Below, piece after piece: positions 23,941 to 30,826 of a DNA stretch of 32,117 nucleotides (position 1 is its first letter; each line of letters begins with the position of its first letter). The stretch comes from Bacteroidota bacterium (lineage in GTDB: Bacteria > Bacteroidota > Bacteroidia > CAIKAF01). Made by a program: the position numbers and the translations under genes. The DNA lies in contig VGMT01000026.1 of assembly GCA_016866335.1 (NCBI GenBank), positions 1 to 32,117 on the forward strand. The letters are read 5' to 3'. The notes below the pieces were generated by a model. That model searched no databases. It was not told the DNA's origin and saw only the letters and a list, made by a program, of their open reading frames with translations.

Positions 23941-24327
23941 TTAAGAGCGCAAAGATTCGGCCTCTTCTTGTATAAACCCCTGAATTTCAAGCCTTAACTG
24001 AACCTTGACCATGTTCAGCGTTTTGATTTTTTCCAGCATAGATTCGGTGCTGCGGTGGGGATTTAACGTCATTTCATTCAGTTGCCGCGCGGAATCGGCA
24101 TCCGTAAAAAACGCCAAATGGCTGTAAGCCACAATTAAACTCTCAAGCGTGTCTAAATCTAAACTCCCGCTTTGAATACGGAACGACAGCAAACTGCAAA
24201 TGCCAAATTTGATGCGCGCTGCCGAGCAGGGCAAATTTTCGACCGGTTGAAAGTACTGCCCTTCCCGCGACAAGCGGATGATTTGACTGTATTGTCCTAC
24301 TATTCGTTGAGCCTCGGTAATGCGCAT
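23941..24327 (-). CDS. Hypothetical protein, last gene of the fad operon
   Basis: 128 residues, no signal peptide or membrane segment, mostly helical and rich in Glu, Leu and Ser (LDTLESLIVAYSHLAFFTDA, then LEKIKTLNMVKVQLRLEIQG). I recognise no domain. It begins 51 bases after fadE on the same strand with no clear promoter, so it is probably the last gene of the operon. A role in fatty-acid use is suggested only by position. Confidence 0.6.
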   Translation of the reverse strand: MRITEAQRIVGQYSQIIRLSREGQYFQPVENLPCSAARIKFGICSLLSFRIQSGSLDLDTLESLIVAYSHLAFFTDADSARQLNEMTLNPHRSTESMLEKIKTLNMVKVQLRLEIQGFIQEEAESLRS

Positions 24328-24378: not shown

Positions 24379-26169
24379 TCAATATGGATAGGCGTTTTTT
24401 TGCAGAATTTCGGCTGCAATGGCTCGGCGTGCATCGCGGGGCGAAATGGGCGCGGTTTTGGTGAAGCGTTTTAGTCCCATTATGGTCATGCTAAGTTCGT
24501 CTCCGCTGCCAAAACTGCAGAGGGCGTTTTTGCCGCTGAGCCAAAGGCGGTCGGCGGTGTCGTAGAACAACACATTCAGCAGTTGGATTTTGCTGGCATG
24601 GGCTTCAATTCCATCGCGGTCGATCAATTTTTGAACCCGGAGCAGGGTGCTTTCGGCCACGTAGGTTTCCATGGCCATATCGGCGATGTCCATTAGAATT
24701 TCTTGTTCTTTGGCCAGTTCCATCATGAGTTTTTGAACGGCGGCGCCGGCCACCAGCAAAACGGCCTTTTTAAATTTTTCGGTGTACAGGTGAAAGGCCT
24801 CAAGCGGCTGCTGCAGGTTGGGCTCAGAAAAGTCGGGGATTTCGAGCAATTCGGCGGCCACGCGTTGGGCGGGCCCCATCAGGTCTAAACTGCCTTTCAT
24901 GGCGCGTTTCAGCATCATATCGACCGTAAGCAGCCGGTTGATTTCGTTGGTTCCTTCAAAAATTCGGTTAATGCGGGCATCGCGGTAGGCCCGGTCCATG
25001 GGAGCCTCGGCCGAATAGCCCATGCCACCAAAAATTTGAACTCCTTCGTCCACCACATAATCTAGGGTTTCTGAGCCGTGTACCTTCATCATGGCGCATT
25101 CAATAGCAAATTCTTCGACGCCTTTTAATTCGGCTTGTTGGGGCGACATTCCCGCCGCTTTTCGGGCCTCGATGGCATCGGTTATGTTTTGGCTGGCTCG
25201 GTAGGTGGCCGATTCGCAAGCAAAGGTGCGCACCACCTGTTCGGCCAATTTGTAGCGAATGGCCCCGTACTTGGCTATGGGCCTGCCAAATTGCTGCCTT
25301 TCGTTGGCATAGCGCGCCGAGCGGCCAACAATGGCCTTGCAGGCACCAATCGAAGCGGCCGACAATTTAATGCGGCCAATGTTCAAAATATTGACGGCAA
25401 TTTTGAATCCGTTTCCGCGCTCGCTCAACAGATTTTCTGCCGGAACTGGGCAGTCTTCAAAAAACACCTGCCGGGTCGAAGAACCCTTGATGCCCATTTT
25501 CTTTTCTTCGGGATTCAAACGAATGCCCGGGTAGGTTTTTTCTACAATAAAGGCCGACAGGTTTTCGTCGGCATCGATTTTGGCAAATACAATGAACAAA
25601 TCGGCAAAACCAGCATTGGTAATCCACATTTTTTGCCCGTTCAACAGGTAGGTTTTCCCATCGGGCGAAAGGCTGGCTTTGGTTTTTCCGGAATTGGCAT
25701 CAGATCCGGCATTGGGTTCGGTCAGGCAATAGCTGGCTTTCCATTCCCCGGAGGCCAGTTTGGGCAGGTAGGCTTGCTTTTGGGCTTCGTTTCCATACAG
25801 TACGATGGGCAGGGTTCCAATGCCGGTATGGGCCGAAATGGCCACGGCAAAGGAATGCCCGGCACCGGTTTCTTCGGCCACCAGCATGCCGGTGTTAAAG
25901 TCTTTGCCAAAGCCCCCGTAGGCCTCAGGAACAGAAACGCCCAACAAGCCCAGTTCGCCGGCTTTGTCCAGCAAACGGGGCATCAAAGCAGGGTCTTCCA
26001 TGCTGTCAATGGCCTCAAGGTGCGGAAACACCTCTTGTTGAATAAAGTCGCGGCAGGTTTCACGAATCAGAATTTGCTCTTGGTCAAAATCTTCTGGAAT
26101 AAAAACGTCTTGGGCCAGGGTAGGGCGAATGAGCCATTCTCCTCCGTTTATGCTGGTTTGCTTTTCCAT
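24379..26169 (-). CDS. fadE: Acyl-CoA dehydrogenase, FadE type (596 residues)
   Basis: Catalyses the first, FAD-dependent step of beta-oxidation, acyl-CoA to trans-2-enoyl-CoA. Residues about 35-145 are the N-terminal helical domain, 150-250 the beta domain (YCLTEPNAGSDANSGKTKA, WITNAGFADL), 260-420 the C-terminal helical domain. The catalytic Glu lies in RIFEGTNEINR (about 417-427), and QIFGGMGY is the FAD-binding signature. About 170 extra C-terminal residues give the length (about 594) of B. subtilis FadE and its relatives. The ATG is 18 bases after the fadA stop. Confidence 0.93.
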   Translation of the reverse strand: MEKQTSINGGEWLIRPTLAQDVFIPEDFDQEQILIRETCRDFIQQEVFPHLEAIDSMEDPALMPRLLDKAGELGLLGVSVPEAYGGFGKDFNTGMLVAEETGAGHSFAVAISAHTGIGTLPIVLYGNEAQKQAYLPKLASGEWKASYCLTEPNAGSDANSGKTKASLSPDGKTYLLNGQKMWITNAGFADLFIVFAKIDADENLSAFIVEKTYPGIRLNPEEKKMGIKGSSTRQVFFEDCPVPAENLLSERGNGFKIAVNILNIGRIKLSAASIGACKAIVGRSARYANERQQFGRPIAKYGAIRYKLAEQVVRTFACESATYRASQNITDAIEARKAAGMSPQQAELKGVEEFAIECAMMKVHGSETLDYVVDEGVQIFGGMGYSAEAPMDRAYRDARINRIFEGTNEINRLLTVDMMLKRAMKGSLDLMGPAQRVAAELLEIPDFSEPNLQQPLEAFHLYTEKFKKAVLLVAGAAVQKLMMELAKEQEILMDIADMAMETYVAESTLLRVQKLIDRDGIEAHASKIQLLNVLFYDTADRLWLSGKNALCSFGSGDELSMTIMGLKRFTKTAPISPRDARRAIAAEILQKNAYPY

Positions 26170-26187: not shown

Positions 26188-27362
26188 TTAAAGTCGTTCA
26201 ATAATTCCTGCGGCGCCTTGGCCTGTGCCTACGCACATGGTTACCAATCCGTAGCGTTGGTTTCGGCGTTCCAATTCGTTCAATAATTGAACGGTGAGTT
26301 TGGCTCCGGTACAACCCAACGGATGCCCCAGTGCAATGGCGCCTCCGTGTACATTGAGTTTGTTGGGGTCTACATCTAGGGCCTGCTGAACGGCCAAACT
26401 TTGGCTGGCAAAGGCTTCGTTGAGTTCAATCAGGTCGATGTGGTTCAAGCTTAATCCAGCGCGTTTTAAAACCCCTGGCACAGCGTAAACCGGCCCCATT
26501 CCCATAATGGCGGGTTCTAGGCCAACGGCGTGGTACGAAACAAATCGGCCACGGGGTGTTAGCCCCAATTCAGAGCGCATTTTTTCAGACATCAGCAAGA
26601 CAAAAGCGGCTCCGTCCGAGGTTTGAGAGGCGTTTCCGGCGGTAACGGTACCTTTGGCATCAAACACAGGTTTTAGGGCAGCAAGGGCTTCAAGGGTGGT
26701 GTCGGCGCGTGGGCCTTCGTCCCGGTCAAAAACTGTCGTTTTTAGGCGGCGTTTGCCATCGACCACCGAGACCTCTTCCACCTCAATCGGCACAATACCG
26801 CGTTGCAGCCAACCTTCTTCTTGGGCTTTTACGGCTTTTTGGTGCGAGTTTAGGGCAAACGCATCTTGAGCTTCCCGGCCAATCTGAAATCGGCGGGCTA
26901 CTTCTTCTGCGGTTAGCCCCATTCCCCAATACCAATCGGGATGGGCCTTGGCCACCTTGGGGTTTGGAACCAATCGCCATCCGCCAAAAGGAATGGGGCT
27001 CATGGTTTCGACACCGCCGGCCACAATGCAATCGGCCATGCCGCTTTGGATTCGTGCGGCGGCCAAAGCAATGGTTTCAAGGCCCGAGGGCAGTAGCGGT
27101 TTATGGTAAGCCCCGGTACAGAATCGGTGTTGATTCCCATCAAGGAAATCATGCGGCCCAAGTTCAGTCCCTGTTCGGCTTCGGGGGTGGCGTTCCCAAC
27201 CATCACATCGTCGATGCGGCTGGGGTCCAGTTGGGGGATTTTGGCTAAGAGTTGTTGTAGCACTTGTGCGCCCAGGTCGTCGGCACGCATGTTTCGTAGG
27301 CTGCCTCGTGGCGCTTTGCCCACAGCACTGCGGTATCCATCAATAATGTATGCGGTTTCCAT
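26188..27362 (-). pseudogene. fadA: Acetyl-CoA acyltransferase (3-ketoacyl-CoA thiolase), one-base frameshift at the active site
   Basis: With one base restored the gene would give 391 residues, the normal thiolase length. The first frame starts at ATG 27362 (METAYIIDGYRSAVGKAP) and runs correctly to LTINRYC; the next residues should be SSGLETIALAAARIQ. That peptide lies in the next frame (26188-27087: SGLETIALAAARIQSG on to CVGTGQGAAGIIERL). The shift falls directly after Cys91, the nucleophile: the sequence reads TGC-CC-TCG-GGC where TGC-TCC-TCG-GGC is expected. The remaining catalytic groups, GGAIALGHPLG (His) and CVGTG (Cys), are intact. FadA cleaves 3-ketoacyl-CoA to acetyl-CoA and a shorter acyl-CoA. 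A sequencing or assembly error is a live alternative. Confidence 0.9.
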
Positions 27363-27373
27363 AGCCTTGGGAT

Positions 27374-29749
27374 TTAATTGCGTAAAGGTTTTCCGGTTTT
27401 TAGCATGTGTTGAATTCGTTGTAAGGTGGGTTTGCTGCCCAGTAGGCTTAAAAACGCTTCCCGTTCTAAATCGAGCAAATACGTTTCGCTGACTTGCTGG
27501 GGCTGCGATAGGTCTCCCCCGCACATTACCCAGCCAAGTTTTTCGGAAATAAGCTGGTCGTGGTCGCTGATGTAATTGCCCGACTTCATGCTGTTGGCAC
27601 CGGCGTAAACAATGCCTAGGCCTTCGCGCCCCAGCACCTGAATGTCGTCGCGCATGCGTGGGCGCAGGTACCCGGCTTCGGCCAGCAAAAGAACGGTTTG
27701 CTTTGCCAGGCCAATGCGCTGGGCCGAATTCATGGTAAACCGGTCTTGGCCTTTTCTGAAAATGCCTAGGTCAAAGGCTTGCAGGGCCGATGTAGCCACC
27801 TTGGCCTGTCCAATGGTTAAAAATCGGTTTCGCAGTACGTTGGTTCTAATGCCACCTTCGCCAAATTCATCGGAGGCGCGCAGGGCGAATTCCTTGGAAC
27901 CACCGCCGCCGGGAATAACCCCAACCCCAACTTCAACCAGGCCAATGTAGGTTTCTGCGGCGGCGACAATGGCATCGGCATGCATGCACATTTCGCAGCC
28001 CCCGCCCAGTGTTAAGCCATGGGGGGCTACCACCACCGGAATATCTGAATACCTGATCCGCATGGTTGCCTTTTGAAAAGCCTTGACCGCAAAGTTGAGC
28101 TCATCCCATTCCTGTTCCAACGCCAGCATTAATATTAAAGCCAGGTTGGCTCCGGCCGAAAAGTTTTCGCCATCGTTGGAAATGACCAAGCCGTTCCATC
28201 CTTCGTTCTCGGCCATATCGATGGCTTTATGTATTCCCTGAATCACCTCGGCGCCAATGGAATTCATTTTGGTATGAAACGACAGGTTCAACACGCCCTC
28301 GCCCAAATTCGTAATTCGGGTTCCAGAATTGGACCAGAGGGTTTTGTCGGCATACAGGTTTGAAAGCAGAATAAACCCTTCTTTGCCGGGCACAGGCATG
28401 TCGGCAGCCCGAACATAATCGTGGTAATGCACGAGTCCCTGTTGGTTTGAATAAAAATGCGTTTGCCCCGCTTTTTGCATGGTTTCTACCCAGCTGGGGC
28501 TGGGCAAGCCGGCGGCTTTTTGTTCGGCAATAACCCAATCGAACCCTAGGGCATCCCAAATTTCAAAGGGGCCGTGGCTCCAACCAAAACCCGCCTTTAA
28601 GGCTTCGTCGATTTTAAAAACATCGCCGGCAATTTCGGGAAGCTGTTCGGCCGAGTACGAGAGCAAGTCCAGCATCAGGAACTTAAAAAAGGGGCCCGGT
28701 TGCTGATCTGATTTAACCAAAAGGCTTAAGCGCTCTAAGGGGGAATCAAGCATTTTCAGGGATTCCAAAAGGGAGCCCCGGTATTTTTCTTGGGGCCGGT
28801 ATTCCATTTTGTTCAGGTCCAAAATGTGAATGTCGCTGTTCCCATCGGCTGTTTTAACCTTTTTGTAAAACCCTTGCCCTGATTTTTGGCCCAACCAACC
28901 CAGCTCCACCATGGATATCAAAAAATCGGGAAGTTGAAAAACCTGTTTTTCGCGTTCGGTAGTTGCCACAGAAGCTAAGCCCGAAGCCACCTTAATAAAG
29001 GTGTCGAGCCCAACCACATCGGCGGTTCGGAAGGTGGCCGATTTGGGGCGGCCAATCAAAGGACCAGAAAAACGCTCGATGGTTTCCGGTAAAATTGACT
29101 GAGCCTGCATTTGGTGCAGCAGTTGCATAATGGAGTACACCCCAATTCGGTTGGCAATAAAAGCGGGAGTATCGCGGCATTCCACCGTGGTTTTCCCAAG
29201 AAATTTGCGGCCAAAGGCCAGAAAGAAATCCACCCATTTCCGATCTGTTTTAGCCGAGGGAATGATTTCCAACAGGTTTAAGTAGCGGGGAGGGTTAAAA
29301 AAATGGGTGCCCAAAAAGCAAGCTTGAAAATCGGCCGAGCGCCCTTGAAGCAGGCTGCCAATGGGAATGCCCGAGGTGTTGGTGCTGATGGGAGTGCCCG
29401 AACGGCGGTGGGCTTCAACCCGGTCGAACAAAGCGATTTTGTCTTCGCGCCGTTCAACAATGCATTCAATAATCCAATCGGCCGTCGACAGCCATTCCAA
29501 ATGTTCATCAAAATTGCCGGTTCGGATATGCGATTTTAAGCTGGGGCTAAATAATGGGTCGGGGCTTAGTTTAAAGGCAGCCTGCAGGGATTGTGCGGCA
29601 AGCTTGGTTTGGGCACCCGAATCCGATTCAAGAACGCGGTCGAGTAAATCTACCGAAAACCCTGCATTGGCTAGGTGGCAGGCAATTTGAGAGCCCATCA
29701 CACCCGAACCTAGTACAGCAATGCGGTTAATGTTCAAGGGAGAATTCAT
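27374..29749 (-). CDS. fadN: 3-hydroxyacyl-CoA dehydrogenase/enoyl-CoA hydratase fusion, FadN type
   Basis: 791 residues from ATG 29749, which overlaps the end of marR by 23 bp; a frame extending to 29818 is not needed. Residues about 7-300 are the NAD-binding dehydrogenase (VLGSGVMGSQIACHLANAG), with catalytic His149 in GTHFFNPPRYLN; the dehydrogenase C-terminal domain follows. Residues about 490-700 are the crotonase domain: DGENFSAGANL (oxyanion hole) and the two catalytic glutamates in GGGCEMCMHAD and YIGLVEVGVGVIPGGGG. The dehydrogenase-first order and length match B. subtilis FadN (YusL), not E. coli FadB/FadJ. It performs hydration and oxidation in beta-oxidation. Eleven bases separate it from fadA. 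Confidence 0.93.
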   Translation of the reverse strand: MNSPLNINRIAVLGSGVMGSQIACHLANAGFSVDLLDRVLESDSGAQTKLAAQSLQAAFKLSPDPLFSPSLKSHIRTGNFDEHLEWLSTADWIIECIVERREDKIALFDRVEAHRRSGTPISTNTSGIPIGSLLQGRSADFQACFLGTHFFNPPRYLNLLEIIPSAKTDRKWVDFFLAFGRKFLGKTTVECRDTPAFIANRIGVYSIMQLLHQMQAQSILPETIERFSGPLIGRPKSATFRTADVVGLDTFIKVASGLASVATTEREKQVFQLPDFLISMVELGWLGQKSGQGFYKKVKTADGNSDIHILDLNKMEYRPQEKYRGSLLESLKMLDSPLERLSLLVKSDQQPGPFFKFLMLDLLSYSAEQLPEIAGDVFKIDEALKAGFGWSHGPFEIWDALGFDWVIAEQKAAGLPSPSWVETMQKAGQTHFYSNQQGLVHYHDYVRAADMPVPGKEGFILLSNLYADKTLWSNSGTRITNLGEGVLNLSFHTKMNSIGAEVIQGIHKAIDMAENEGWNGLVISNDGENFSAGANLALILMLALEQEWDELNFAVKAFQKATMRIRYSDIPVVVAPHGLTLGGGCEMCMHADAIVAAAETYIGLVEVGVGVIPGGGGSKEFALRASDEFGEGGIRTNVLRNRFLTIGQAKVATSALQAFDLGIFRKGQDRFTMNSAQRIGLAKQTVLLLAEAGYLRPRMRDDIQVLGREGLGIVYAGANSMKSGNYISDHDQLISEKLGWVMCGGDLSQPQQVSETYLLDLEREAFLSLLGSKPTLQRIQHMLKTGKPLRN

Positions 29750-30236
29750 AGCTTGTGGTATTTGGGGAATTGGGCGCTTGACTGTAGGCCGTATGCTGCG
29801 CAGAGAAGCTTGAGGCAAGTTCGGGTAATTGCTTCAACAGGTTTTCGAGTAAAGCCCATTCTTCAGGGCTCCATTTTGATTGCAAAAAGCGGTGAAAGGC
29901 CTTTACCGTTTGGCTGGCTTCTTTGCGGAACCGCAACCCAAGGGGAGTTAAAAAAACGCGTACCATGCGCTTGTCTAGGGTGTCGGCACGGCGTTCAATC
30001 CAGCCTTTTTCTTCTAAATTGTTCAAACTGCGCGAAAGGCTTCGGGAACTTAATCCCAGGGCCGGTCCCAGATGGGTTACGGCCACCCCTTCGGCAGGAA
30101 CATTCAGCAGCAGGAAACCGGTTGAGCTGTTTATTCCTTTGCTGAGCCCCATTTGATTGTACATTCTAAAAATGGCGTGCCAGGCGGTTTTTACCTGAAA
30201 ACAGGCGGTTAATTTATCGGCGGATTTCTTTGGCAT
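29727..30236 (-). CDS. MarR-family transcriptional regulator of the fad operon
   Basis: 169 residues from ATG 30236; the longer open frame upstream crosses the promoter and a structured repeat and is not coding. The winged-helix domain spans about 45-125: VTHLGPALGLSSRSLSRSLN is the helix-turn-helix and WIERRADTLDKRMVRVFLTP the wing with its DxRxxxVxLTxxG pattern. An N-terminal helix (KLTACFQVKTAWHAIFRMYN) supplies the dimer interface. The C-terminal tail (QAPNSPNTTSYEFSLEH) is disordered. The 3' end overlaps fadN, so the two are translated together. I infer control of fatty-acid genes and itself through the palindrome at 30263. Confidence 0.88.
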   Translation of the reverse strand: MPKKSADKLTACFQVKTAWHAIFRMYNQMGLSKGINSSTGFLLLNVPAEGVAVTHLGPALGLSSRSLSRSLNNLEEKGWIERRADTLDKRMVRVFLTPLGLRFRKEASQTVKAFHRFLQSKWSPEEWALLENLLKQLPELASSFSAQHTAYSQAPNSPNTTSYEFSLEH

Positions 30237-30239
30237 GCC

Positions 30240-30247
30240 GAAAGGTA
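30240..30247 (-). promoter_or_regulatory. -7 promoter box TACCTTTC of the marR-fad operon
   Basis: One mismatch to TAnnTTTG on the minus strand, only three bases before ATG 30236, so the transcript would be leaderless. The expected -33 region falls inside the palindrome at 30263-30278. Confidence 0.45.
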
Positions 30248-30262
30248 CAAAAACCTTAAATT

Positions 30263-30278
30263 CGTATGCAAGCATACG
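30263..30278. promoter_or_regulatory. Perfect palindromic operator candidate for the MarR regulator
   Basis: CGTATGC and GCATACG form a perfect 7-bp inverted repeat with a two-base centre. The size and symmetry fit a MarR dimer site, and it lies 15 bases upstream of the -7 box, over the -33 region, where a bound repressor would block RNA polymerase. Acyl-CoA is a reasonable inducer by analogy with other fatty-acid regulators, but that is inference. Confidence 0.6.
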
Positions 30279-30373
30279 GTAATTTTTAGGAAATTTTACG
30301 GGGAAGTGCTGGGCCGGGTGGTTTTTTGGGGGGATATTGTTCGGTTTTGTTATTAATTGGCAGCGATGATTTT

Positions 30374-30516
30374 GGGCGGCAGGCGGGCTTTCCGCGCTAC
30401 TCCGCAGTTGCCGAAAGGCTGGCCCAGCTGGTTTGCGGGGGCTCCTAAAGTCGCCTCCGCACCTAGCGGGCCAGGCTTCGGCAGCTTTGCGGGGTAGCCG
30501 CGTCAATCCCTGCCGC
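30374..30516 (+). repeat. Dispersed structured repeat, copy 4 (long imperfect hairpin)
   Basis: The outer arms GCGGCAGG (30376-30383) and CCTGCCGC (30509-30516) are perfect complements. Next comes the core CGGGCTTTCCGC (30384-30395), then a long imperfect stem: the segment from GCTACTCCGC through GGCTGGCCC pairs with the segment from GGGCCAGGC through GCGGGGTAGC, with TGCGGGGGC/GCCTCCGCA as the inner stem. CAATCCCT (30504-30511) is the second core. The remaining DNA, 30517-30826, is AT-rich with no gene. Confidence 0.6.
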
Positions 30517-30826
30517 AGTCGACTGCCATGCAACTCCCACCCTCTAAAAACAAGTTATGAGATTAAATTTGATGACAGTTAAAAAGTTGATAGATAGAAT
30601 TTGAAAAAAGCTTGATTTTTAGTTTTAAGTTTCACAAAAATTACTTGCGTTAAGAAGCTGAATTTTGAGAAACCATGCGCAAGGTGTTTTCCAATTCTTT
30701 TCTGCAGGATGTGTTTCCTATTTAGCCGCCGTGGTTTCGGCCCAAAGGTAAGGGGATTGCGTTTGGGGGACCATTGAGGAATTCGGACGGAAAGACCAAA
30801 AAATCAAGTAGGCGGCCCCTAAAGGC

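Follow-up and report, generated by a model that had tools for sequence, protein, structure and literature searches.

A conserved palindrome ahead of a marR-fadN-fadA-fadE operon as the probable operator of its MarR-family regulator

The marR-fad locus and its palindrome

The window, that is, the whole stretch of 32,117 nt of a Bacteroidota genome that was analysed, bears on its minus strand a marR-fadN-fadA-fadE operon, with a palindrome ahead of marR. The features are as follows.

30263–30278, no strand assigned: predicted palindromic operator CGTATGCAAGCATACG, from the sequence and from conservation upstream of marR orthologues
30265–30276: conserved operator core TATGCNNGCATA, within CGTATGCAAGCATACG
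30269–30271, minus: possible -33 TTG at the centre of the palindrome, 21 nt upstream of the -7 box, as read from the sequence
30240–30247, minus: putative -7 box TACCTTTC, which differs from TAnnTTTG at one position and lies 17 nt away from the core
29727–30236, minus: marR, MarR-family regulator of 169 aa (PF12802, PF01047, predicted model, fold matches)
27374–29749, minus: fadN-like 3-hydroxyacyl-CoA dehydrogenase / enoyl-CoA hydratase, its start codon overlapping the end of marR
26188–27362, minus: fadA-like thiolase, reading frame broken near 27090
24379–26169, minus: fadE acyl-CoA dehydrogenase (NF058590, above cut-off)

The palindrome is perfect, with the 7-bp arms CGTATGC and GCATACG around AA, and lies 26 bp ahead of the marR ATG (30236, minus strand). 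The sequence-only reading had described a 16-bp site of two 7-bp arms and a two-base centre just upstream of a -7 box, and both statements are borne out: the exact palindrome occupies 30263–30278, and the end of the box is 3 nt away from the ATG. Judged by its own sequence, the palindrome is at chance level: four perfect ones of this geometry (7-bp arms, 2-bp centre) occur in the window, and 20 first-order Markov sequences average 3.55. What lifts it above chance is the comparison with relatives.

The regulator contains a winged helix-turn-helix MarR domain, as indicated both by Pfam (PF12802, 33.7 bits with a cut-off of 27; PF01047, 31.5 bits with a cut-off of 24.6) and by fold matches: its model (mean pLDDT 85.5) shows the MarR topology, and many MarR structures are matched, with Z up to 16.4. 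The palindromic site at the regulator's own promoter that is usual in the MarR family is present as well, as a site only. The protein reaches no NCBIfam equivalog cut-off, and with 25.6 bits against a cut-off of 200 it falls outside the FabT equivalog NF050133. Its fold neighbours include binders of salicylate and of p-coumaroyl-CoA; the fold match was considered as an indicator of the ligand and set aside, since structure comparison says nothing firm about the ligand.

The fadA frame is open in five congeners and broken in the window at about 27090, near what we take to be the position of the active-site cysteine; the break may be an assembly error or a real loss. Directly downstream of fadE on the same strand lies a 128-aa frame (23941–24327) that matches neither Pfam nor NCBIfam and is possibly the last gene of the operon. 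Upstream of the operator, at 30365–30535, lies a dispersed repeat of about 150 bp, which has at least 43 matches in the window's genome and at least 41 each in genomes G001 and G003, 40 candidates having been scored per genome out of 203–207 first-look candidates, and one weak match each in G002 and G005. On the minus strand it can form a long hairpin (z -4.7), and a copy adjoins the marR operator in G003 too (C23:167152–167298). This repeat is possibly a more unusual object than the operator itself.

The site ahead of marR in relatives and its promoter layout

To follow the site in relatives, we searched for the MarR protein in 80 genomes, namely the window's own and others from its genus, family and class, and found a match at E 0.001 or better in 52 of them (72 match rows). 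The counts cover 49 of the 72 rows, the remaining 23 (E 1.9e-8 to 9.3e-4) being presumably other MarR proteins. Of the 48 class-relative loci that could be evaluated, 38 have the exact core TATGCNNGCATA no more than 300 bp upstream of marR; the window is one of these, and the core is kept down to 29% identity of the MarR protein. Among the first 30 class loci, of which one lies at a contig edge, the core is exact in 23 of 29, has one mismatch in three (L011, at -136, L014 and L021) and two mismatches in L012, and is missing in two (L029 and L030), where another frame ends directly upstream of marR. Among 20 further loci, one of which repeats the contig-end case, it is exact in 15 of 19 and missing in four: L186, where the available upstream DNA measures just 156 bp, and L191, L195 and L200, each a second, more distant marR copy accompanied in its genome by a first copy that does have the site. 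These three second copies have N in the recognition helix at a position where most proteins have R; as a divider of proteins with and without the site this residue fails, because L196–L199 have T there and the site is still present.

In a second set of 80 named-record loci, of which 79 could be evaluated and one lies at a contig end, the core is exact in 69 of 79 and has one mismatch in nine more, and the sole locus without the site, L127, also has no fadN match. Both sets are counted as raw loci regardless of kinship, with many Hymenobacter among the 80 named loci, and they overlap partly, several named loci coming from genomes that are also among the class relatives. Outside the 300-bp regions upstream of marR, the 929,238 bases of the named loci contain one further exact core (L129), whose coordinates coincide with those of the fadE site of the same genome, and the reversed pattern occurs once in the same bases. 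Thus the search that the sequence-only reading had proposed, for the palindrome before the marR-fadN operons of relatives, recovers it as an exact core in 69 of 79 and 38 of 48 loci, and its absence ahead of orthologous operons, which would have counted against the proposal, is not what these loci show. One of the named records, JACSSC010000031.1 (L088), is titled Candidatus Competibacteraceae and bears a Bacteroidota marR-fad operon; the title looks wrong.

The Bacteroidota promoter consensus, in the available text of PMC7366714 and PMC2483708, consists of a -7 TAnnTTTG and a -33 TTTG. We aligned 63 sites with respect to this layout; they were chosen as exact, so that ten core positions are invariant by choice and carry no information. 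At the free positions, the centre has A at +5 in 43 and T at +6 in 53 of the 63 sites, and the flanks are symmetric, with T at -3 and A at +14 in 49 of 63 each; the arms flanking the core are A/T-rich. A box that matches TAnnTTTG with no more than one mismatch follows 4–40 nt downstream of the core in 57 of 63 sites, and in 41 of these 57 it starts 10, 11 or 12 nt past the core. With an 11-nt gap, the common layout, the first TATG of the operator lies 19 nt ahead of the box. As the spacing between -33 and -7 elements is 19 nt, this TATG may take the place of the -33 TTTG. The window departs from the common layout, with a gap of 17 nt instead of the usual 10–12 and no T at -3, and we count both departures against the operator reading.

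The marR start codon follows the -7 box by 3–4 nt in all six genomes of the genus (30234–30247 in the window, and L006–L010), which predicts a message almost without a leader. By a hand count, the nearest start lies within 7 nt of the box in 25 of the 57 sites with a good box. Leaders shorter than 10 nt make up only about 3.7% of 5' UTRs in B. thetaiotaomicron, according to the available text of PMC7366714.

Copies of the proposed operator away from marR

Binding by MarR predicts that a fadE encoded apart from the marR operon is preceded by its own site. The sample for this expectation consists of 14 genomes from the 18 named loci with no fadE beside marR (L103, L110, L127 and L155 were left out, of which L103, L127 and L155 also lack fadN). 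Three of the 14 were set aside, L271 because of a contig end and L261 and L270 because fadE lies directly behind a thiolase gene, where no site precedes it; in the 11 evaluable genomes fadE has its own exact site in all 11, 36–121 bp upstream. The pattern searches had already yielded two of these (L258 and L269, as L065 and L210), so nine are new. Two exact copies, 37–51 nt apart, stand before fadE in L262, L264, L265 and L266, and such pairs might permit looping or cooperative binding.

The converse was examined in the 34 genomes without a strong marR match. They include 23 with fadE, of which 22 could be judged, and a site within 350 bp upstream is present in none of the 22, eight of them with neither a thiolase nor a fadN match ahead of fadE in the locus. 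Similarly, among the 46 genomes that match marR strongly, 25 contain TATGCATGCATA, with 44 copies in total, and the 34 genomes without such a match contain two copies, both inside reading frames; the reversed pattern occurs seven times in all 80 genomes.

Operator copies thus stand ahead of beta-oxidation genes at more than one place, both at fadE (11 of 11) and at another acyl-CoA dehydrogenase. The intergenic copies found in relatives are given below; these sites were mostly picked for A/T centres or from copy-rich genomes, so the list is not a rate, and in L066, L071, L078 and L213, for example, the automatically called start of the frame lies ahead of the site, so that "before" assumes a later start codon.

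Before fadE: L065, L075, L079, L210
Before another acyl-CoA dehydrogenase: L207
Before secretory lipases (PF03583): L071, L078, L081
Before a class 3 lipase: L066
Before a ceramidase: L077
Before an aldehyde dehydrogenase: L202
Before alpha/beta hydrolases: L204, L213
Before an iron-sulphur membrane protein (oxidoreductase): L205, L209, L211
Before phasin-like small proteins, in four genomes: L069, L070, L076, L080

The phasin-like proteins of L080 and L076 score 30.4 and 28.4 with NF047773, below its cut-off of 35, and this neighbourhood hints at lipid or polyester storage under the same control. The neighbours at L072, L206, L208 and L214 are not lipid-like, and several copies lie inside genes (e.g. 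L083 and L084). The iron-sulphur oxidoreductase was considered as a class-wide target and rejected, the exact site being upstream in one of 30 loci (30 of 74 matches).

The window's genome contains three exact copies of TATGCNNGCATA; the one at marR is intergenic, and the two others lie inside genes. A regulon inside this genome was thus rejected, and the switch appears to serve one operon there. When the exact and one-mismatch copies of G000 are counted together with nine congener loci that have exact copies, 53 copies lie inside reading frames and four outside; the marR site is tallied as inside since it falls within a longer frame that is not a gene. Two of the four outside copies are in G000 (L049 and L229), neither beside lipid genes, and a further G000 site near a frame start (L236, TATGCTTGCAAA) lies upstream of an unidentified protein. 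The "simple fatty-acid switch" of the sequence-only reading therefore fits the window's genome, where the marR copy is the sole exact intergenic one, and is too narrow for some relatives, in which a wider lipid regulon is indicated.

Interpretation and known systems

The MarR protein whose gene lies directly downstream very probably uses the palindrome as its operator, and autorepression of marR-fadN-fadA-fadE is very likely. Autorepression had been suggested from position and symmetry, and it now gains support from the core kept before marR orthologues, from the site that follows fadE outside the operon, and from its absence where marR is missing. We infer that MarR is the binder and that binding represses; the gene content and the position of the site point to the sign of regulation and to the ligand, with acyl-CoA as the inducer that the gene content suggests. 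A MarR dimer would bind the TATGC and GCATA half-sites across their two-base centre and cover the -33 part of its own promoter, where it would block RNA polymerase and keep marR, fadN, fadA and fadE low. Incoming fatty acids would give rise to acyl-CoA thioesters, and these or a related beta-oxidation intermediate would bind MarR, which would then leave the DNA, the operon being transcribed until the acyl-CoA is consumed. We estimate a probability of about 0.83 for this explanation as a whole, namely a MarR operator, repression of the regulator's own operon and release by acyl-CoA or a related intermediate.

MarR could also repress here but sense another signal, for example a free fatty acid, acyl-ACP or a lipid-derived stress signal. 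MarR proteins do bind very different ligands, as the salicylate and p-coumaroyl-CoA binders among the fold neighbours illustrate, and the FabT model gives a score well under its cut-off; we nevertheless hold this unlikely, because the targets are mostly catabolic (beta-oxidation and lipases) and because CouR, of the same fold, was solved with an acyl-CoA-type ligand (5cyv, 6c28). It is improbable that MarR is an activator, or a repressor and an activator at different targets: the site lies over the -33 position at marR promoters, where a protein would block polymerase, even though the sign is not readable from sequence and a few targets have paired sites. That another DNA-binding protein, such as a global regulator, reads the palindrome, with marR as just one of its targets, would account for the sites before genes that do not adjoin marR. 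We consider this very improbable, since in the named-record loci the site is nearly always before marR, and since in genomes without a strong marR match fadE lacks it in 22 of 22 cases and TATGCATGCATA is rare and confined to reading frames. An inverted repeat arisen by chance, or an RNA hairpin that plays no part in transcription initiation, would suit the chance-level count of such palindromes in the window and has next to no probability, for the site is conserved upstream of marR over the class, on which ground the chance reading is dropped, and it lies upstream of the -7 box and would thus not be transcribed from this promoter, which argues against the hairpin.

With MarR as the preferred binder, a broader proposal can be made, on which we are evenly divided: TATGCNNGCATA and MarR may constitute an undescribed master switch of lipid use across Bacteroidia, ranging from a single self-repressed beta-oxidation operon in the window's genus to a regulon with secreted lipases, ceramidase, acyl-CoA dehydrogenases, an iron-sulphur membrane oxidoreductase and phasin-like proteins, in which an operator half-site would replace the -33 element, so that repressor and polymerase would read the same bases. 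The near-invariant operator could serve as a predictor of lipid-controlled lipases and acyl-CoA enzymes in many environmental genera, and the operator hypothesis is assayable with one protein and one short DNA.

How fatty-acid degradation is controlled is understood in detail for Proteobacteria and Firmicutes; among the known systems, the regulators include FadR of the GntR type, PsrA, FadP and FadR of the TetR type. In the titles and abstract beginnings of the open-access literature, we found no description of such a regulator or site in Bacteroidota. An archaeal TetR-type FadR is described in the available text of PMC6449355. Like FadR, PsrA and FadP, the window's MarR is predicted to be a local or regulon-wide repressor of beta-oxidation, probably released by acyl-CoA; those regulators, however, belong to other protein families with other operators and do not form one family with it. 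FabT shares with it the MarR family and a role in lipid metabolism, but the targets of FabT are in fatty-acid synthesis, not degradation.

A MarR autorepressor with an operator at its own promoter is of a known kind, whereas the class-wide lipid-catabolism regulon is apparently undescribed. E. coli MarR, SlyA, MepR and CouR are autorepressors with an operator over their own promoters. The window's protein resembles these autorepressors in its Pfam MarR domains, in its fold (Z 14.5–16 to MarR, MepR, CouR and others) and in the predicted palindromic operator over the regulator's own promoter; it differs from MarR, SlyA, MepR and CouR in its operator TATGCNNGCATA, in the beta-oxidation operon context and in reaching no NCBIfam equivalog cut-off. 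CouR controls aromatic catabolism, and its structure 5cyv aligns with the model of the window's MarR at Z 15.1, with an rmsd of 3.5 over 141 residues and 18% identity. With p-coumaroyl-CoA as an effector of the acyl-CoA type (5cyv, 6c28), CouR offers a model for how the window's MarR might be released from its operator.
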